From assembly GCA_014904985.1 (NCBI GenBank), contig MU129086.1:48092-106647 (forward strand): 58,556 nucleotides of DNA, given 5' to 3'. Positions 13,986 through 31,524 of the stretch are shown in pieces. Position 1 is the first letter of the stretch, and each line of letters begins with the position of its first letter. The position numbers were made by a program, and so were the translations under genes. The notes beneath the pieces were generated by a model. The model ran no database searches, had not been told where the DNA came from, and worked only from the letters and a program-made list of their open reading frames with translations. The DNA is from Hydnum rufescens UP504 (taxonomy: Eukaryota > Basidiomycota > Agaricomycetes > Cantharellales > Hydnaceae).

Positions 13986-14384
13986 CTTAGTTTCTATTGA
14001 TTTGAAGTCTGGATTGTATATTAGGTGCAGCTAGCACACAAATTCAGTAGTTCTCCCCCTCCCTTCAGTTTGAAGCTCCTTGAACAGCTGCTGGTCCCTG
14101 GGTGATTTCTCACTACAAAAAGTGAATTCTAACTACACTTTGACTAAGGTCTCAAGAAGAGATTCTTAGGGTGTGGTAATTTGACACAAACACACATTCT
14201 CACTTAATTGCTTGGGCTTTGTTGGCTCACAGCAATTTTCCCCTATTCCAAAAGACCCTTTTCACTCAAGCCTCAACACTCAGATTAATTCTGTGGTTCC
14301 CTCTTTTTTCCACAACTTAATGATGCAGACTGTAGCTGGATTGATCCCTTTCCTTCCTGCTTACAACATGACCAGACACAACTG

Positions 14385-14575
14385 ATTTAGACATGCCTAA
14401 ATCAACCCTTGATATGCCTCTTCAAAATCAATTATTAAGCTCAAGACATCACTAGACACAACTGATTTAGACATGCCTAAATTAACCCTTGATAGGCCTC
14501 TTCAAAGTCAATAATTAAGCTCCAGACATTAGACACAACTGATTTAGGGATGCCTAAATCAACCCCAGAATGCCT
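14385..14575 (+). repeat. Tandem repeat, ~80-87 bp, 2.5 copies
   Basis: The units begin AGACACAACTGATTTAGACA, continue ATGCCTAAATCAACCC and contain GGCCTCTTCAAA and AATTAAGCTC. The first two are nearly identical; the third is partial. Confidence 0.85.
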
Positions 14576-16150: not shown

Positions 16151-17019
16151 CCCCTGCATGTGGCTCTTTAATGAAAATTTTCAGGGTTGTTTCCCTTTCT
16201 CAGAAAATGTCAAATGGGCTGTGAGCAAAGGCCACTGAGAATCCCTTGTCTTCTTTGAGGATGACACCAAGGGGGAGGTAGATGAGTGATATTCTGCAGA
16301 GCTTCTTTTTATATTTCTATCTACTCAAACCATATTGATTCTGCTGTACCAATATTTCTTTATATTAAAAATTCACTCTCTTCACACTTGAGTCCTAGCA
16401 GACCTCTGGCTTTCCCCCATAATACTGTAACTCAGAGCCTCAGAAAAAAACAGAGGTTCCAATGGGAGATTGCTAAAAGACTGAATTCAGCTGAAATAAT
16501 GATGAGACCAAGTGGGGTCCATTATCTTCTCTGAAAGGATGTCTAATAAGAAGACTTAGACAACTGATTGAGATGTGCCTTTTATACAACTTGTTGTGAT
16601 ACATGATGCCTACAATGGTGTATAGACATCAATGATCCTTGCCAGTCTCCTTGAAAGTCTCCTGACAATATTTTGTGAGTGTTGTCCTTTTAAATCTCCT
16701 GTATCCCCAAATTCACTCTGGATATGAGCCTGGATCAAGCTGGCAGTATGCCCTGTTTCCTTTGCATCCCATGAATCCAAATTCCTCTCACCCCGAATCC
16801 AAATTATGACCACTAGTTTAACAAGCCATAATCAGCAATCTCCTGTACACTTATAAGTGGTCTCAGCACTGACAGCAAAGAAAAACCAGATATTGAACCC
16901 AATGGTGGGGTTGGGTACCCAGGTGACGCTGGAATGAGTGCTTAGACCTCTTGGAGGCAAGAATTAATGACAACCCAAACTGACCAACAATTTAAGTAAG
17001 GGTGCACAGGCCTTGACCC
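16151..17019. other. No supportable gene
   Basis: AT-rich DNA with short open frames only. A 67-codon minus-strand frame at 16610-16813 has no recognisable motif. The 3' untranslated region of the minus-strand gene to the right would fall at its upper end. Confidence 0.5.
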
Positions 17020-20000
17020 CTACATATTTGAGCACCTAACATAACTTGGGTGAGATGGCAATAAGGCTGAGAGTGCAGACTAGACACATTTACCATGAAA
17101 TAATTGAGACACAGGTGAGCAATGGATGAGATTGCAATTGTCCAGGATCATTAGGCTTTGGAATGTTAGATGTGACATACATTATCCTGTGGCAAATGAA
17201 ACTGTAAGGAATGAAATCAGAATGTCAATGTATAAATCCAGGAACCCACAAGCTATGTTGGAAAGATGAGTGGAATGTGTAAGAGTAGGGACCTTACACT
17301 GAGTAGAGGCAGGCTCACATCCTGTGGGGTAGATGCCACTCAGTAAGAGATTGGCAAGAACTCCCAAAGTAAAGGGTAGGAGGTGCAGACTGACCTCCTA
17401 TGTGCACAAATGCACAAAGTAGGACATCAGTGAGCTATGATGCATTTGATTCTAAGAGATCAGGACTTACAGGCTATTTTGTCAATGACATTAAAAGTGA
17501 AAGTGAGGCAATGCATTGTATCATGAGAGATCCACACTTACTTTCTACATTGTTGACACCATTGAAAGACAAATCAGTGAGGGAAAATGCATTGAGTTAT
17601 AAGACATCTGGACTCACAACCTGCATTATCAGTGCCACCAACAGAGGAATCAGCAGTGGTCAATCTATAAAATTCTAAAAGATCTGAACTTACAATCTAC
17701 ATTGTTGATGCCACCAGAAGGTGAACCAGAGCATAACATGAAATTCAAGGACATTCAGACTTACAAACTATGTCATCAATGCCAGTAAAAGAGAAATCAG
17801 CAGAAATCATTACATTGGATTTTGGGGGATTTGGACTTACAGGCTATGTGATCAATGGGCCCAAAAGATGAATCAGCAGGGGGTGATGTGTTGAATTCTC
17901 AGGGATCCAGACTTACAAACTACAATTTCAAATGCCATCAAGAGATAAATCAGCAGGACAATGCAGAAAATTCCAAGACATCTGCACTAACATCCTACAT
18001 TGTCAATGCCACCAACAATGAATCAACAGGGGACACAGGATCAAATTCTAAGCAATCTAGGCTTACTTCCTGCATTGTCAATGTCACCAAAGGATGAATC
18101 AACAAGAGATGATGCATTGAATTCCCTGGGACCTGGGCTTACAGACTATGTTATCAGCCCCCAAAAGATAAATGAGTGGGGGCACAATGCATAAATTTCT
18201 AAGCCATCTGGACTTACATCCTATGTTTTCAATGCCATCAAAAGATGACTTAGCAAGTGACAATGCATCAAATTCTGAGATATGCAGACTTACATGCTAT
18301 GGTGCCAATGCCATCAAAAAACAATTCAGGGGATGATGCCTCAAATCCAAAGTGACTCCAACCTACAAACTATATTATTGATGCCATTACATGATTCATC
18401 AGCACAGGATGATGCATTGAATCATCAGCAATATAAACTTACCAACTACAGTCATCAATGCCACCAAGAAATAAATTAGTGGAGGACAATTTATCAGATT
18501 TTTGAGACAATTGGATTCACCAACTACATTGGCCATGCCACCAAAAGGTGAATCAACTAGGGAAAATGGATCAAATTCTATGACATTTGGACTTACATAC
18601 TATGTTGTCAATGCCATTAAGAGATGGATTAGCAAGGGAAGACATATCAAATTCTAAGACATCTGGACTTACATGCTGTGTTGTCAATGCCATCAAAAGA
18701 CAAATTAGCAAGGGCCAAGGCATCAAATTCCAAGACATCCAGACTTACACCCTGCATTCCAAATGCCATCAAAGGATGAATCAACAAGTGATGAGCCACC
18801 AAATTCTAGGCAACTGGGACTTACTCCCTATGTTGCAATTCCACCAAAAAATGAATAAGCAAGGACAATGCACTGAATTCAAGAGATCCAGACTCACAGG
18901 CTATGTTGGAAATGTTACCAAAAAATGAATCAGTGGGGGATAACACCTTGAATTCTAAGAGGTCCAGACTTACAGGCTATGTTGTCAATGCCAGCAAAAG
19001 ATGAATTACAAGGGTAAAACATCAAATTCAAGACATCTGAACTTACCAACTACATTGTCAATGCCACCAAAAGGTGAATCAGCAAGTGATGATGCATCAA
19101 ATTCTAAGAGGTCTGGACTTACATGCTATGTTGTTGATGGCACCAACAGGTGAATCAGGAGAAGACAACACATCAAATTCATAGACACTAGACTTACTTC
19201 CTATGAAGTCCATGAAATCAAAGGCAAATTGATGGGGAACAATGCATCAAATTTATAGACATCCAGACTTACTTCCTAGATGTCATGCCACAAAAAGATG
19301 AATCAGCATGGGACAATGCATTCAATTTTAAGACATTGGGACTCACTCCCTATGTTGCCAATGTCATCAAAGATGAATTATGGAGTGAAAATACATGAAA
19401 TTCTAAGAGACCTGGACTTACAACCTACATTATCAATGCCATTGAAGGATGAATCAGTGGGAGATAATTCATTGAATGCTAAGAGATCTTGACTTACAAT
19501 CTATGTCACAGATGCCAGAAAAGATGAGTTGGTGAGGACAATGCATCAAGACATCCAGACTCACCAACTATGGGTCAATGTCACCAAATAATGAATCAGT
19601 AGGGGGAAATACATCAAATTCTAAAACATCCAGACTTACACGCTATGTTGTCAATGCCATTAAAGATGAATTAGCAAGGGACAATGCATCAAATCCTAAG
19701 AGATCCAGACTTACAGGCTACATTGTCAATACACCAAAAGATGAATCAGTGGGAAGGTTGTATTGAACTCTTAAATGTTCCAGACTTACAAACTATGTTG
19801 TCAATGACATCAAAGCACAGATCAGCAAAGGACAATATATTGAATTTCAAGAGGTATGGACTTACAAACTACAATGTTGATACCACCAAAGATGAATGAG
19901 CAAGTGACAATGTATCAAATGGTAAGACATTGAGACTTACCAACTACATTGTCAATGCCACCAATACATGAATCAACAAGGGATGATGCTTTGAATTCTA

Positions 20001-23000
20001 ATGGCTCTAAACTTACTGGCTATGTTGTCAGTACCACCCAAATATAAGTCAACAATGAATGATGCCTTTAATTCTAAGAGATCCTTACAAACTACATTGC
20101 CAATGCCATCAAAGGATAAATTGTCAGAGAACATTGCATTAAATTCTAAGCAATCCAGACATACAAACTGCATTGTTGATGCCAGCAAAACATGAGTCAG
20201 CAGGGGATGATGCAACAAACTCTAAGACATCCACACTAACATCCTGCATTGTCAGTGCCAGAAAAGATGAATCAGCATGTGACAGTGCATCAAATTCAAG
20301 GAGATCCAGGCTTACATCCTAGATTGTCAATGCCACAAAGAGATGAATCAGTGCATGACAAGGCATTAAATTCTAAGCAATTGGGACATACTTCCTATGT
20401 TATCAATGCCACCAAAAGATGAATCAGTGAGAGACAATGCATCAAATTCTAAGAGATTCAGACCTGCTGTATTGTCAATGCCACCAAACAATGGGCCTCA
20501 GTCAGTAGAGGACAATGTATCAATTTCTAAGACATCAGACATACATCCTACATTGTTGATGCCACCAAGAGATGAATCAGCAAGGGATGGTGGGTTGAAT
20601 TCTAAAGAGGTCTGGCCTTACAGTCTACATTGTCAATGCCATGAGAACATAGATCAGCAAGGGACAATGCATGGAATTGTAAGAGATCTGGCCTTACAGA
20701 CTACATTGTTGAAGCCACTGAAAGGTGAGCCAGCCAGAGATCATGCATCAATCAGTGCAAGAACTGGACTTACATACTATAGTGATGACACCACACACAC
20801 ACAGATATATCAATCAAGGACCACCCAATGAACAGGGGAAATGCAAACTCACCACCTTGCATTGCCCATGTCATCAAACAATTTATTAGCCAGTGCTCTT
20901 ACATGAAATTGCCAGATATTTCAACATACAACCTACATTGGTGATACCACCAACTGATATATCAGCTAGCACCCATATGTCAAATCATGGGGGACACCAC
21001 TGACATTCTACATTGTCAATGCCCCCAGATGATATGTAACTCAGCCAGTGACCTTGCATCAAATTGTGAGAGACCATGGGCCCACCAGCTACATTATTGA
21101 TACCATCTGTGGGATCAGCCATGACCATACACCAAATCAAGAGGAAGTCAGGCTCACAAACTAGGTTGTCAATGTCACCCAGAAATATCATCCATGAGTG
21201 TGCATCAAGGGAGTAGAGATGAGAACTCACATGCTGCATTATCAATGTCACCAAAAGTATATTGGCCAGTGACCCACATCAAGTTGGGAAGGATCCAAAC
21301 TCACATGCTGCATTGTCCAAGGGGCCCAATGATGTATCAGAGAGTGACTATGCATCAAATTGTGAGAGATCCAACTTACTTCCTACATTGTCCATGTCAG
21401 AGAAAGAAATATCAACCTGCACCCAGGTGTTGAATTGGAGAGCCAACTTACTGCCTATGTTTTCAATGCCATCAGAAGACATATAAGCCAATGGTGATAC
21501 ATTGAATACTACAAAATCCAGACTTACATGCTATGTTGTCAGTGCCAGCAAAGGATGTATGAGCCAAGTGACCACCCATGGATAGTTGGAGATGTGCACT
21601 TACTGCCTATATTATTGATCCCATCCAACAATGTATCAGCCAGCACCCACTGTACTTAGAGGTATCTGTCTGGACATACATTCTATATTGTTGATCACAT
21701 TAAAAGATGTGTTGGCTAGTGACTGATGATAGTGGGGGTTGCAGACTCACATTCTACATTGTGAATACCACCTGATGTATCAGCTATCATTGACCCAGCA
21801 TCAAATTGTGAGAAGCAGCCTACAGGCTTCATGGTGAATGCCACCAGGAGATGAATCAGCCAGCAACCACCCACCAAAGCAAACAAAGAGCTTACATTCT
21901 TGATTGTTGGTGCCATCCAGTGATGTGTCAGCTAGTGTTGCTTCACTGAGGTGGGGAGCTTACATCCTACATCATCAGTACCACCAAACAATGTATAGTA
22001 TTAGCAGTGACAACACCCCAATTGGATCATATCTGAACTCACAGGCTGCAATGGTAATGGCACCAATTGATGAATCAATAAGGGACCATCCATTAAATTG
22101 TGAGAGATCTGGACTTACTGCCTACATTGTCCATGAAGAGAAAGAAATATCAGCCCAGACCTACACATCAAATTGAAAGAGATCCAGACTTACTCTCTAC
22201 ATTGTCCACACCATCAGATGATGGATCAACCAGTGACCATATGCTAACTTATATGAAATGCTGGACTTACATACTACATTGTCCATGTCACTGAGTGAGA
22301 CAGTGGCTAGCAACCACCCATGAATGCTGGGAGATATGGACTTACCTCCTATTTCATTGACCCCATCCAATAATGTATCAGCCACAGACCCCATAATAAA
22401 ATCTCCACACTCACATACTATATTGTGAACATCAAGAAAGATTTGTCAGCCAGTAACCATACACTGAATTCCAAGACATCTGGACATACATCCTATGTTG
22501 TTGATGTGACCAGAAGATGTATGAGTCAGTCACCACACACTGAAGAGTGGGGAAGCAGCCCACATTCTAGGTTGTTCATGCCAAAGGTTCTATTAGCTAG
22601 TGACCACATATCAAACTCTGCAAGTTGCAATCTTACCTCCTATGTGGTCCACATCACCAAGAGATCTATCAACTGGCAATGGATGCAAAGATGGGGGATG
22701 TGGACTCACATGCTATGTTGTCCATGATGCCAAAAGATATACACCCAACAATTTTACATCAAATTCTAAGAGATGCAAACTCACCCCCTGCATAGGGGAT
22801 TCCACCAAGCTGTGTCAGGAAAGGACCATGCATCAATGGGTGGGAGATCAGGACCCACATACTGGGTTCCCAAAGGTACCAAAGATGTATCAGGCAGCTA
22901 TCATGCACTGAATCATTGGAGATCTGGACTGACCAACTACATTGTTGATGCCACCAAGAGGCATGTCAGCCAGTGATTGTGCACCAAATGGTAGCACCTG

Positions 23001-24454
23001 CAGCCATACCTCCTATGATATCAGTTCCATCCAACCAACCAATCATGCATTATATTGTCCAGTTGTCACAGTTACAGCATTCAATACAATCAGGACCTCA
23101 AATCTGCCTGCAAGTGGCATATTCACATACCATGAGAATCCTGAAGCCCATATCTGCATGTAGCTCTGATTCTTCATCTTCTCCAGGCCCAGGGGTTCGG
23201 GCCACAATGGTCCCTGAACATAGTCAAATTATACCATCATCTCATTGATATGGTTTGGGGTGGCACCTTTAGCTTCAAGTTCACGGACTACACATTCAAG
23301 GACTCTGTGAGATAAACATGACTATTATTAGTCACCAGGAATCTGTGGGACACCCACACTCACCGGAATAAAACATAATTGGTATGAATCCGGCGATTTC
23401 TTTTCCAAACCGTGAGGCTGAGCAACAATCTCTGGGTCCCATGAGGAAGTGCATCTAAAGTGGTTTGAAGAAGCCGATTGCATGATGCTACACTCTGCTC
23501 AGTTTCTTCATGCATGCCTTTAAACCATATATTTGAGTGCTAAAATTGCAACTTGGATAAAATATACATACTTCCAACACTGATGAACCCAGCAGGTGGA
23601 TACTGCTGGTTGCGAAATTGGCTCTCGAGTCCGTTAACAAATTCAGCAACTTGCTGCTGCACTTCCGTGGCACAATCAAGGAAATCGGATGGGTTGGCAG
23701 CAGGGCCGAGAACCGCATTCATCACCTTCATCTCTCTTCCATCTAACTTGGTGAAGATCCCGATAACAGGCACTGAATAACACATGGACAAGTATGTAAC
23801 GGAAAGGATCAACTGCTGCAGCCCATGAGCCATACCTGATGCTGTGGATTTGGAGAAGAAACCTGACTCCAGGAATCCAAAGGGCCTGTCATTATCTGTT
23901 GGAATGCAGAGCCTGTACTAATTGATGAGTTGAAGCATGCGGGTATATGAACCTACATGGAAACGCACCAAATTGCATGCAGTTGCAGTGAAGGTGAAGC
24001 TAACGAGCGCTTTCGGATAAACTGCCAGACGGCCTGGACCTCCTCAACCCCTCCCGCCTCGAAACCACCAGAATCGTGGAAAACGAATGCAGGATTTGAT
24101 GCATACGTGATCTCGTCGTCAATATTGTGGATCCCTCGCTAGACAATATGGAAACATAAAGCAAACTGAGTGCTCCTTCACTAGGGTGGCTCTTACTTGA
24201 TCATATCCCCTGGGGACGTCCGTAATCTGAGAGATAAAGGATGAATTAGAAGTGCATCTCCACTGAGCTCGAACACCCATAGTAATTACACGTTTTCCCT
24301 TCCGGGTCACTATAGCCGCGCCAGCAGGGCTATCTGTTAGTCGTTCGAGCAGAGTGGTCTTTCCTGCGTTCGCTGGTCCAAGTATGAGGACCCTGAGGCG
24401 CCTATCTCTGTCTTTGTTGTTGAGTTTAAAATGCTTGAGGATAGATTTCCACAT
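17020..24454 (-). CDS. G-domain GTPase running into ~78 single-codon exons (proposed gene model)
   Basis: The conventional exons (minus strand) are 24454-24290, 24226-24197, 24138-23969, 23912-23836, 23772-23572, 23517-23364, 23304-23267 and 23213-23131 (306 codons). They keep one frame through all junctions. Domains: P-loop LILGPANAGKTTLLERL (residues ~24-40), switch region RGIHNIDDEITYASNP, G3-like HDSGGFEAGG, then AIWLCIPTDNDRPF, and G4 GIFTKLD. This is the cytosolic agaricomycete G-domain family. After 23131 come 78 three-nucleotide exons (first 23012-23010, last 17242-17240), a six-nucleotide one (17186-17181) and a terminal exon 17079-17020 ending in TAG. Most predicted introns are 64-84 nt. 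The acceptor before 23517 is AAG. An alternative end exists: without the 53-nt intron 23266-23214, translation stops at TAA 23231-23229. The GTPase part is firm; the micro-exon part is inference from splice signals and frame. Confidence 0.65.
17181..23015 (-). repeat. Tandem array of 75-76 bp units, each an intron plus three nucleotides
   Basis: Units sit at 17240, 17319, 17395, 17471, 17542, 17618 and so on up to 22859, 22934 and 23010 (position of the free triplet). The minus-strand unit is GTAAGTCCAGA.., branch GCTGATTC or GCTAATTC, then GGCATTGACAACATAG and three free bases. GT is kept in all 78 units. The acceptor is TAG in about 62, CAG in about 13 and AAG in 3. The YAG-to-GT gap is always three bases, although unit length varies from 67 to 87 bp and the rest of the unit is degenerate. 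Confidence 0.9.
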
Positions 24455-27245: not shown

Positions 27246-30200
27246 ATGGGCTTCATTCTGGACGTATTTACTCTTTCAGTCCTCCTACAATCCGCTGCCT
27301 GCGCCGCATCCACTTCCGAAGCCTTGAATCGTCAACATACGCCTTTAGACTTGACGCACTATCGGAGGTTGAGAACTAGTTCAGGAAGACTCCATTCCCG
27401 TGCACCCGTCCCCACGGGCTGGAGGTATGTCTGGTATTTATTGTGTGAAGGGGAAATCTCTGCATGGTTCCGACTTGGCCCCTACTCCTTCTAGCGCCAA
27501 AGGATGCTTCACCGATTCGACATCTACTCGAACCTTAGTCGGGTACTCAACTTCAACGCAGACTAATACGCCTCAGGTGTGCCTCAATTCATGTCAGAGT
27601 AGGGGATATGCATACGGAGGCGTTGAATATGGTGGGATCTTCATGCCTGGCTTGCAGTTTTCCACTGTCTTGCTAGTTCTTTGACCACTAAATTTATGCT
27701 TCAGGAGCTCAATGTTATTGCTCCAATAAAATGGTCGTTACTTCCTCCACTGGCCAACCCACTGCAATTGGGGATTGTTCAAAGCCATGCTCGGGAGATT
27801 CCACCCAGTCGTGTGGCAACGCCGGTCGAATAATGATTTACACTTATGCTCCCCCTTTACCATCAGGATGGAGGTCTGCCTACTTTGATGTCTTCGCGAT
27901 AAATCTCAGCTAATTGCCTTTTGTGTTTCCTAACAGTGCTCTTGGATGTTATACAGATGCGCCCTCATTTCGTGCTTTGGCCTCAGTTTCCACAGCATCC
28001 TCGTCAAATATCCCCAATTCATGTATCTCAAATTGTAGCAGTCAAGGATACAGCTTTGCGGGGGTCGAATTTGGAAAAGAATGTTACTGTGGCCAGTCCA
28101 TCGTGGTCTCAACATCGCCATCGTCGGGGCAACTCGCACCATCTGGAGACTGTTCGATGGCGTGTTCTGGATCTCCGGTACAGACGTGTGGGAATGGTAG
28201 TCGCATATTCATTTATACAACATCTTCGACGACTACGACTACGACAACTATGGCCACAACGGCATCCGCTACGCCAACAACTACGACTACCTCCACATCC
28301 TCTCCCGGCGGCAAGGTAGTGGTGGCTCAGTGAGCAGTTCTTGTGCCTTTTTCCTCCCAAATTTAAACCTCTGACTATTGTATCAGCTTCATGGTTGGAA
28401 ATTCCTTTGTGCGTTCCAATCCCTTTTCCCAACTCTCTTCCGAGTTTGGTAAGTCATCGGTGTCTTGGATAGTCCTACAGCCGATCCACTTGGTCTTCTA
28501 ATATGGCGCTTGCCATGGCCGGGGGAATGTAAGTCTCATCAATCCCCCTGGTTGTTCCCTAATGTCTTACCCTAAGGACCCACAGTGACGGATTTGCTCT
28601 CAACGTGGGATCCGACTCATGGTCTTCAAACAGAGTGGCTGATGCTTACGCCGCAGCCATTGGAACACCCTTCAAGCTTTTCTTGTCCCTCGATATGTCG
28701 TGAGTGATACGCCTCTAGGGCTCGTTCCAGGAGTTAAAGTTTCATCATCCAGATCTCTACCCTGTGCCTCGACGGGTGACGCGAAACTTATTCGACAATA
28801 TGTCAACAACTACTCGAATCATCCAAATCAGTTATTCTATCGCGGACAGCAAGTCGTGTCCACATTTTCTGGTTCAGACTGCAAATTCGGCCAGAGCAAT
28901 ATCAATACAGCGTGGAATTATGCTGTCAAGGCCACGGCAACAAAGCCTGTCAGTCTCCTTCTGGATATTTCCCATCGTGGTTCTAGTGCCACCCTAATGA
29001 CTCCATTCCAACTCTGACCTAGATTGCATTCATTCCTGCATTTTTCTCCCCAACTTCTTCCTTTGCCTCGACTACAGTGATGAACGGGGACTTCAACGTG
29101 AGTAAAATGTTTGGATCTCTTCACCATTGAATTCATGACCTCCCGATTTTCTCCGTATAGTGGAATGGAGGATGGCCAATGGTGAGTATTGGCATTGTAT
29201 ATATATTGCGCAAAGACATAATCTCCCCCCATAGGGGGACTACGATATCGATTTTTCAACCGATCAAACGCACATCAATGCGATTGGAGCTAGATACTAC
29301 ATGGCGCCCGTGACCCCAGCGTTCTTTACAGTAAGTACCGTGTCTGATCCGCGGTATATATCTTAACATTTCTCACACGCGTTGTTTGTTAAGCATTATG
29401 GCGCGAATTCCTTCAATAAAAATTGGATTTACCGAAGGTGAGCGAATATGCGTATATTTTGGGTGAGGCGGAAGATTCCTAATTCGTTTGGATCTCTCTT
29501 CCTTATCAGTGATGATTGGTTATACAATTCGCGCTGGGAGCTGTTAATCCAGCACCGAGCCCAGATTGATATAGTCGAGGTGATGCTCTTTCCCTGATTT
29601 TATTTTTGCTTGTCCACTGATATGATTCTCCTTTCGATGGATAGATCATTACTTGGAACGGTGGGCCACTTGACCTTTATTTCTGGCGTCCATACCCTGA
29701 TCACATTTCCCCCTTTAGATTACGGTGAGAGCCACTACATAGGGCCCATCGGACCGGACCAGCCCGGTTCGCAAGCCTGGGTGAATGGCTTTGACCATCA
29801 AGGTGTGTGTCTATCCCTCACATCCTGGTCATCTCGGCGAAGTAGCTGACTGAACTGGTTCTAAAGGCTGGAATATCATGACGAAGTACTACGCGGATGC
29901 GTGGAGGAGTGGGGTGTACCCGACGATCAGCAAGAATCAGATCTTCCTATCTGCGAGACCGCACTCGAAAGCTCTCACTATCAAAGATCCGATAGGGAAA
30001 CCTAACAGCTGGCAATGGGTGGGCAAGCTATTGGCGTTATCTCCTTTCGGGGTTATTGGTTGACTCAGATCATCTGATGGCATCTATCCAGACCGATGAC
30101 AACCTTTACGCAGTCGTATTTGCCACAGGACCTGGGTCATTACAGCTTTCCATAGGCTCATCAAATCGTACAACGGCTATCTCTGCCGGTGTGAATAAGA

Positions 30201-30349
30201 TCAAGCTTCCGCTGAGCCCCGGGTCGCCCACTGCTCTGCTTCGCGATTCTAATGGCAATTTGCTCATTTCATTCTCGCCCAGTGGCTTCACATATGTGAC
30301 CAAAGCAGCTGCTTATAATTTCAATTATTATATGGCGGCATCTCCTTGA
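27246..30349 (+). CDS. Secreted alpha-1,3-glucanase (GH71) with two WSC domains
   Basis: The start ATG at 27246 gives a signal-peptide-like MGFILDVFTLSVLLQSAACA. Two WSC carbohydrate-binding domains follow. The first, about 27500-27870 across two introns, reads GCFTDSTSTRTL..ANCYCSNK-type, then CSKPCSGDSTQSCG. The second, about 27945-28215, reads GCYTDAPSFR..GKECYCGQS..CSMACSGSPVQTCG. A Thr/Ser linker follows (28207-28305). The GH71 domain starts KVVVAHFMVGNS and continues DGFALNVGSDSWSSNRVADAY, FKLFLSLDMS, GDYDIDFSTDQTHINAIGAR, ITWNDYGESHYIGPIG and a C-terminal beta-rich part ending NYYMAASP. Spliced from about a dozen exons. Such enzymes cleave alpha-1,3-glucan (mutan) in fungal walls. The WSC repeats suggest wall attachment. 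No frameshift was noticed. Confidence 0.92.
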
Positions 30350-31524
30350 ACCATTTCTCAACATCCCAAAATACGATGCTCTATAGTAACATCGATGGTT
30401 CTATATATTCGACTTAACTTCACCTCTGAACAAGCATCTGGGCATTTCCGAAGACTGACGTCCCTCGGTTTCCTGTGAGGGCTCTAATAGGGCCGCCACT
30501 ATACTGTAGCGGAGAGAAAGAAGGCGAGAAAAGCTACGGAAGCAAAAAAAATCTGGAATATCATATTTCTCATCCTTCCTTGTTGCTTGCTTTTCTGGTT
30601 CTCTTAATCTTTAACTGTACCATATAAGAAAATGCTCTTCCTCGGGCACAGGCCGTGAAGCTGGTGCTCGCGAGGGGCGCGCACAAGGAGATAAAATTCA
30701 GTTATGATGGCCGCTTTCATTCTCGCAAAAGCCGTCAGCGTGACTCTCGGGCCCAAAGGTCAGACTCCCCCATCACATTTCTCATGTGCTCGTCATTAGG
30801 TTAGGCCAATATCCCACATTCGTGACCGACGGTTACAACTACCGTATGCCGGTGAAATTTGTCCTTGTTTACAGTTTCTTCGCTGTTGGGAATGCCTGAA
30901 TATAATCTTCTCGAGAGTATCTGTCCACCAGAGCAAGTCCAATATGATCATGACCATTTATAGATACAAAATAATTATATGGGAACCCCCTGAATAATCG
31001 GGCTCGGGGTTCTAGAGACGTCACTGGCTCTATTAAGAATCCAAGTCCCAGAACCCCACAATAATTCATGAATATTTACCTGGATAATTCCCGGGGTTTC
31101 CTAGGAACTTGATAGTAGTTTCGTAGATCCAATTACAGTAAAATCTCACAATGCTAGCAATTCAGTGATCCTTGGATAGCTTGTGTGATGACAGTGCATG
31201 AGACATTTACGCTCATGGTCCTACTTAACTTGTTGAGCTTACTCAGCCAGGTGACTATGGTCGGGAGTGGGCGTTGCCGAAAGCAGACGACGGGCTCATT
31301 GCGCAGAGCGTGTCTGGCAATGCTGAGAAGCCGAATGCCAGCTGGAATCTACTTAGGCAACTACGGAGCGTTGAAGAGACTGAACAATAAGACTATGCAA
31401 CCCAGCCTCAACGACGCAGTGGTTTTATGCAATAAAAAGGGAGGGTGGGTAGAAAAAATTTGCGGGTGTGTGGTGCGTGGACGGATGTGACGAGCGAGAT
31501 GAGCGAATTATTGATGAGGACACA
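30350..31524. other. Intergenic, with one gene fragment
   Basis: Apart from the HSP60 fragment (30671-30760), I see only short frames without recognisable domains (for example plus 31185-31490). Confidence 0.5.
30671..30760 (+). pseudogene. 5' fragment of HSP60 (mitochondrial chaperonin)
   Basis: RGAHKEIKFSYDGR is followed, after a frame change and a deletion of roughly eight residues, by ILAKAVSVTLGPKG, the start of the mature HSP60 chain. A GTCAGA donor-like site follows. Nothing of the rest of the chaperonin (about 570 residues in the family) is present nearby. Confidence 0.75.

Follow-up and report, generated by a model that had tools for sequence, protein, structure and literature searches.

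The window analysed here is a 58,556-nucleotide stretch of contig MU129086.1 of the basidiomycete Hydnum rufescens UP504, and its minus strand carries a GTPase gene followed by an array of 78 tandem units with a mean length of about 75 bp, running from 23015 to 17250. Each unit has the form (T/C/A)AG-NNN-GT, that is an intron acceptor, three free bases and a donor. Because database proteins contain such triplets joined in genomic order and then read into the next array intron, we consider it very likely that the 78 triplets are true one-codon exons which are spliced in, at least in runs.

In-silico splicing of the eight ordinary exons upstream of the array (24454-23131) gives a single open reading frame, 306 codons long, whose phase-0 end is ...GFRILM, and the array continues this reading with ELYGHENDYEYRAPDN... 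Exons 1-7, once spliced, agree with P0015, an NCBI protein of the same strain. The encoded protein has the motifs of a P-loop GTPase, GPANAGKTT, DSGGFE and TKLD, which we take to be the Walker A, DxxG-like and TKxD motifs respectively. Pfam returned only weak GTPase and P-loop matches for it, the best being Arf and MMR_HSR1, and the structure model of the GTPase, with a predicted local distance difference test score (pLDDT) of 71, matched IRG, EngB and GIMAP among many GTPases in the PDB, with low template modelling scores. The array-encoded tail of the window gene, the only tail scanned, gave no Pfam match. The paralog L039 has the same exon structure and 350 codons, its seven ordinary introns measuring 54-63 nucleotides (nt) and its array introns 62-80 nt.

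A preliminary description of this DNA had claimed 78 units with an invariant GT, a constant gap of three bases, and an acceptor that is TAG or CAG in about 75 and AAG in three. The count agrees: exactly three free bases, and a GT directly after them, are found in 78/78 units where it had placed them, the acceptors being TAG in 62 (the first beginning at 23015), CAG in 13 and AAG in 3, with the last acceptor at 17255. The unit length of 67-87 bp given there holds at its lower end only, the spacing from unit to unit being 67-81 nt. Likewise, the branch word that it put before the acceptor is present in part of the introns: a CTRAY word lies 15-50 nt upstream of the acceptor in 47/77 introns, versus a mean of 10.8 after intron shuffling, and its A sits 30 nt from the intron end in 25 of these 47, while 30/77 introns lack the word within that interval. 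GT donor, AG acceptor and branch-like word, the signals of spliceosomal GT-AG introns, are thereby all represented in the array. A GTG codon exon with the unusual AAG acceptor occupies the same place in the window array and in the arrays L032, L034, L036, L038 and L039, and its counterpart is seemingly skipped in two identical database proteins, P0037 and P0038.

Table 1. Exons of the GTPase gene, its array and the predicted downstream exons in the window
Feature	Position	Strand	Basis and remarks
GTPase exon 1 (start ATG, P-loop GPANAGKTT)	24290..24454	-	in-silico splicing; agrees with NCBI protein P0015
GTPase exon 2	24197..24226	-	in-silico splicing; agrees with P0015
GTPase exon 3 (DSGGFE motif)	23969..24138	-	in-silico splicing; genome matches
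GTPase exon 4	23836..23912	-	in-silico splicing; agrees with P0015
GTPase exon 5 (TKLD motif)	23572..23772	-	in-silico splicing; agrees with P0015
GTPase exon 6	23364..23517	-	in-silico splicing; agrees with P0015
GTPase exon 7, weak donor gtgcca	23267..23304	-	in-silico splicing; model P0015 reads through the donor, then stops
Last ordinary exon (8), phase 0 end ...GFRILM	23131..23213	-	in-silico splicing; 47 genome matches
Array of 78 single-codon exons and 77 introns of 64-78 nt	17250..23012	-	codons spell ELYGHENDYEYRAPDNPNNAHAEHHFLNVVYSTDQEDDFFPLFFPRLIVGEEHLPPGGHYLLFHDSEDFPFIVKPEDL
Predicted six-base exon GATAAT, donor gtatgt	17181..17186	-	suggested by alignment of 14 arrays
Predicted terminal coding exon (...HTASLIQAHIQ...ARIIDVYTPL stop)	16610..16812	-	like frames in paralogs

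Codon-like behaviour of the triplets

The own genome of the fungus, 63.2 Mb in 539 contigs, was searched; a paper on mycorrhizal genomes that reports the sequencing of H. rufescens used assemblies from Illumina, PacBio or both (PMC7550596). The unit pattern GACAAYRTAGNNNGTAAGT, with at most one mismatch, gave 944+517 = 1461 matches in the genome versus 13+7 = 20 for the reversed pattern. Twenty arrays were parsed, the window and nineteen others, of which L042 consists of two joined stretches and L037 is a 13-unit fragment, with a parser that required AG, and GT or GC. Exactly 3 nt were found in 1362/1449 parsed exons, with 47 to 155 parsed exons per array, and in 886/898 exons of 13 arrays classed as clean, a split that was made after the exon lengths had been seen. 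Since 606/1362 of the 3-nt units match GACAAYRTAGNNNGTAAGT, a rough estimate for the genome is 3,300 units.

None of the 1362 triplets is a stop codon, whereas 39.4 stops are expected from shuffling columns within arrays (minimum 22 in 2000 shuffles) and 36.8 when only position 1 is shuffled. For the first 14 arrays, 0/917 stops occur in phase, and the joined triplets read out of phase contain 3 and 190 of 903. A chance origin of the unit pattern is excluded by the excess of its matches over those of the reversed pattern and by the stop-free triplets. Among the 1400 array introns, 1175 end in TAG, 782 start with GTAAGT and 1096 have a CTRAY word, most commonly starting 33 nt from the intron end. 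Furthermore, the peptides spelled by different arrays are related, as seen in ELYGHENDYEYRAPDN, ELYGCENDYEYKASDN, ELYGRENDYKY and ELYGNE.LYEYGPDN; the residues E, L, Y, E, Y and Y are invariant at the start of 11 aligned tails, and many arrays end in VESMDL or PEDL. The diversity at homologous codon positions is 0.27, 0.21 and 0.19 versus mostly 0.3-0.55 in intron columns, several splice-site columns being equally low.

The last ordinary exon has 47 matches in the genome (expect value up to 0.26); as the query does not extend beyond the exon, this is a count of copies and has no bearing on tails. An array lies behind 18/18 of the matches examined, in the window or in fetched stretches, out of the 47. 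Conversely, the exon was located in 12/12 arrays searched, open to its end, with a pattern that itself demanded a ...CTNATG end; for L044 and L037 it was not seen in the fetched stretch, which for L037 borders on N. A search with exon 3 gave 59 matches; 50 reach at least 75% identity, including a partial one with a stop. In 4.5 kb of a more distant GTPase, L051 (77% in exon 3), there are 12 unit-like sites whose exons are of 3 nt, and the remote GTPase L052 on C70 (41% in exon 3) has no array units in 2.5 kb and a normal CpG content. Remote copies of the GTPase on C70, C273, C133, C59, C80, C185 and C55 show 37-53% identity in exon 3, and those other than L052 may represent the ancestral gene. 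A retrocopy or a contiguous tail in the genome was also sought with exon 8 plus 35 tail residues and was rejected, as all 36 matches end at residue 20 or 21 of 55, in a search that scored only the best candidates.

Array introns are nearly devoid of CpG, with an observed/expected ratio of 0.00-0.07 in 20/20 arrays. The ratio is 0.24-0.96, mostly 0.5-0.96, on the GTPase side of 18 arrays (short stretches in L045-L050), and downstream of the arrays it is 0.01-0.08 where measured, except for 0.29 in L031. Half of each gene thus looks heavily methylated or otherwise purged of CpG. The third codon base is C in only 3/1362 triplets, and the loss of methylated CpG, that is of C before GT, is likely to lie behind this scarcity; a change from NNC to NNT is always synonymous. 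Low CpG, tandem 76-bp units and near-identical young units are also what a noncoding satellite or tandem repeat in one long intron would show, its splice-like sequence being kept by descent or as recursive splice points. We regard such a repeat as very improbable, given the absence of stops, the continuity with the GTPase frame and the related peptides of paralogs, and it is contradicted by the joined codons in seven database proteins, unless their contigs are artefacts. The excision of the whole array as a single intron was rejected together with it, on the joined codons, the absence of stops and the frame continuity.

Joined codons in database proteins

A profile search with the GTPase end plus tails gave 17 proteins from 613 candidates. 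Joined codons are present in eight of these, and in four the sequence passes from ILM into the first array intron; of the other five, three are NCBI models in which the frame is lost at or near ILM and two are without the exon. As P0037 and P0038 are identical in sequence, the proteins with joined codons are seven distinct ones. P0027 joins 33 codons, ELYGLEDLYEYKTPQAHNLENENEEQHQLETVY, and the others join, in genomic order, 29 (P0037/P0038), 11 (P0039), 9 (P0040), 8 (P0041) and 4 each (P0042 and P0043). They come from contigs of 931-1641 bases, and because of this size the contigs of P0027 and P0038 are too short to hold the genomic introns; we infer that the proteins derive from complementary DNA (cDNA). 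Six of the seven run on into the next array intron. For three of them this agrees letter for letter, with VSPDPY 6/6 (L032), VSVDSI 6/6 (several arrays, L047 included) and VGLDVLGFDA 10/10 (L050), and the remaining three match the translated array intron at 21/22, 18/22 and 17/21 positions. In L047, ELYGCEKYY is followed by the read-in that P0040 also has. P0027 has three codons (TPQ) beyond L032, and therefore comes from a relative or from another copy; in the structure model, the blocks that hold its 33 codons have a mean pLDDT of 38-52, most segments lying below 50. The start ELYG of the arrays is in none of the NCBI models of the family that were examined, and the array would represent a class of coding sequence missed by present annotation.

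The preliminary description had proposed that the triplets are spliced in with conservation of frame, and the seven proteins, the 0/1362 stops and the phase-0 join to the GTPase uphold this. It had not noted that the array is one of a large family, that it joins the GTPase frame in phase 0, or that peptides spelled by its relatives resemble its own. The combinatorial exon skipping that it foresaw is so far a suggestion, the cases in point being the NCBI model P0002 and, in P0037/P0038, a skip of two exons that ends in a stop. No database protein showed the array removed as a whole with every triplet lost, and unspliced read-through was seen in part, as 4/17 proteins enter the first array intron and six of the seven a later one.

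Several observations weigh against single-codon exons that are spliced in and translated. The transcript-like evidence consists of protein sequences, none of them from the window's own gene, and the cDNA origin of their contigs is itself deduced. No end-to-end spliced product was found, a tail-only search giving P0037 alone of 319 candidates. P0037 and P0038 look mis-spliced, since their end SRYHID, from whose letters the join was derived, fits a skip of the GTG and TAT exons to an AG eight bases further on and then a stop. P0002 reads ILM-DY-VSVDSI and would skip codons 1-7; it is either a guess of the predictor or a join to codons 8 and 9 (plus intron 9). Single-base codon differences are 95 synonymous to 363 nonsynonymous, with no signal of purifying selection on the residues. 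Moreover, 87/1449 parsed exons are not of 3 nt, 71 of them in L040, L042, L044, L045 and L047, and there are 27 parse gaps where units were missed or broken. Some of the odd exons are misplacements by the parser or true 6-nt exons. In the five arrays named a young intron carries 0.97-2.6 indels, compared with 0.0-0.7 in those other arrays where more than two introns are young; because the affected arrays are so rich in intron indels, a reading of the 2- and 4-nt exons as real junctional variation was set aside. This suggests assembly error, yet the excess at the codon exceeds that at intron sites.

All seven distinct proteins stop within the array, six of them at a retained intron, and four more run into the first intron and terminate there, so complete splicing could be uncommon. 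Together with the outcome of the tail-only search, these ends are in line with a partial splicing in which the codon exons are real but splicing normally fails at some point, so that tails differ in length, each closing in a retained intron, and translation seldom or never reaches the rest of the array. We judge this unlikely, though it deserves more weight than the other alternatives: stops are absent and the 3-nt spacing is mostly exact along whole arrays, many paralogs resemble one another in their last codons (VESMDL, PEDL), a likeness to which shared descent also contributes, and the matches are predicted open reading frames (ORFs), which by construction terminate where the first intron is retained. 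We therefore keep to inclusion of the single-codon exons, with one transcript that would be spliced through the whole array.

Downstream of the last codon, most of 14 aligned arrays have GAYNNT followed by a GTRAGT-like donor, and a terminal frame ending in IIDEYTAL or similar recurs in L051 and in 10 of the 14 arrays tested, in one of these with an inner stop. The array frame may thus enter a conserved C-terminal exon, as these alignments suggest, although its codon-position diversity of 0.160/0.184/0.185 indicates little constraint. In the window an in-frame stop lies upstream of the likely acceptor of this exon, and L046 is without a stretch in its 3' region. Elsewhere in the window there are a 21-bp tandem repeat of 12.5 copies (789-1046), an 80-bp tandem repeat of 2.5 copies with 89% matches (14366-14565), and, on the plus strand at 27900-30350, ORFs whose translations contain a WSC-like stretch rich in cysteine and another rich in Ser/Thr, presumably a gene for a secreted enzyme.

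Probable unit turnover and comparison with known systems

The encoded segment opens with a conserved first part of about 35 residues, continues with a middle whose length and sequence vary, and in many cases closes with a conserved VESMDL or PEDL. For L045/L049 and L038/L045 the DNA of the first part is 2-3% divergent and the middles are unalignable by eye. The decay of the rest of the unit, which the preliminary description noted, applies to the old array of the window and does not extend to young arrays, where near-identical introns surround differing codons. Near-identical pairs of units within arrays (at most 3 differences in 70 flanking bases, n=1596, of which 1263 come from L038, L046 and L049) differ at codon position 1 in 63%, at position 2 in 62% and at position 3 in 2.3%, versus about 2.7% per site in the flanks (single columns up to 14%), a value limited by the pair filter. 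When 146 intron bases are considered the codon differs in 42% of pairs with no mismatch (12 pairs) and in 88% of those with one (25 pairs). Codon identity is 0.11-0.30 at all distances versus 0.10 by chance, and neighbours are not clearly more alike.

Blocks of many units have been duplicated inside the L047 and L042 arrays with their codons copied, and in L047 the duplication covers part of the conserved first segment. In these two arrays only 15-26% of the pairs differ at positions 1 and 2. The copied blocks of L047, in the conserved part, show 0/40 differences at positions 1 and 2 at an intron divergence of 1.5-2.4%, and those of L042 show 0/22 at 0/864 intron mismatches.

The rates at positions 1 and 2, and the frequent codon change beside a single intron mismatch, could be read as targeted mutation, a dedicated process that rewrites the two bases after the acceptor in middle units. 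We hold this to be improbable, a step below partial splicing, since copied blocks keep their codons and since a similar pattern would result from homogenised introns under diversifying selection, which PMC2873952 describes for WD repeats of fungi. An intrinsic hypermutation of every unit is disfavoured by the same blocks, and purifying selection alone with homogenised introns by the unalignable middles of close paralogs. The best fit is a turnover of units with intron homogenisation and selection for new residues.

Taken together, we hold with high confidence that the array extends the GTPase frame by one-codon exons, which probably undergo unit turnover. In this explanation the spliceosome would remove the array introns, of 64-78 bases, one by one, and each 76-bp unit gained or lost would add or remove one residue at no risk to the frame. 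The middle would evolve by gain, loss and homogenisation of these units under selection for new residues. The analogy with fungal NOD-like receptors makes it probable that the protein senses a variable target, for instance nonself. More tentatively, with somewhat less than an even chance in our estimation, some 47 GTPase genes diversify a recognition segment residue by residue through intron recombination, each mRNA requiring about eighty splicing events; the genetic unit of such a domain would be one residue, its codon lying alone between copies of one intron.

Exons as small as 1-6 nt have been described, but as rare single cases. A 3-bp exon reportedly exists in Drosophila homothorax, and human RPS24 is said to have three microexons in a row. 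RPS24 resembles the array in its consecutive microexons but differs in having three only, in one human gene and with no tandem unit. Introner elements are many near-identical introns of one genome inserted in many unrelated genes; they share with the array the near-identical introns, whereas here, in the array regions and two other GTPase stretches, intron and codon form a tandem unit behind one gene family. An exon of 1 nt is described in Arabidopsis APC11 (PMC4674806) and in Fusarium CYP621A (PMC12940212). These genes and homothorax indicate that an exon of only 1-3 nt is within the reach of spliceosomes, those of fungi among them, but their exons are isolated between ordinary ones and do not form arrays of single-codon exons.

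The micro-exon genes (MEGs) of Schistosoma mansoni have 10 to 20 exons of 6-81 bp (also given as 3-81), mostly of 15 bp, with introns of 0.1-5 kb (PMC10526429). The arrays are like MEGs in their many consecutive tiny exons with lengths mostly in multiples of three, and unlike them in standing behind a GTPase and in having 47-155 parsed exons per array, almost every one of 3 nt, and introns of about 73 nt. HNWD/HET-E of Podospora combine a GTP-binding NACHT domain with near-identical WD40 repeats that are homogenised, have few hypervariable codons and undergo expansion and contraction (PMC2873952). Here too a nucleotide-binding domain precedes a tandem array of homogenised units with hypervariable codons, as in fungal NOD-like receptors and HNWD, in this one genome. 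The GTPase is however of another kind, and in place of an exonic WD40 unit there is an intron plus one codon; NACHT/NB-ARC and WD40, ANK or TPR repeats, the domains of fungal NOD-like receptors, had no Pfam match in the window protein. A variable array behind a nucleotide-binding domain in many copies recalls fungal recognition receptors by analogy, not by membership.

An array of single-codon exons, with its architecture of one amino acid per exon, was not found in the open PubMed Central papers searched, a coverage that leaves out most subscription papers and preprints. If true, about 47 genes with tens of consecutive one-codon exons, roughly 3,300 in one genome, test how the spliceosome defines exons too short for any exonic signal and how accurate splicing can be across some 80 consecutive events. 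They would also offer a way of evolving proteins one residue at a time, in which intron recombination could add, delete or swap single amino acids.

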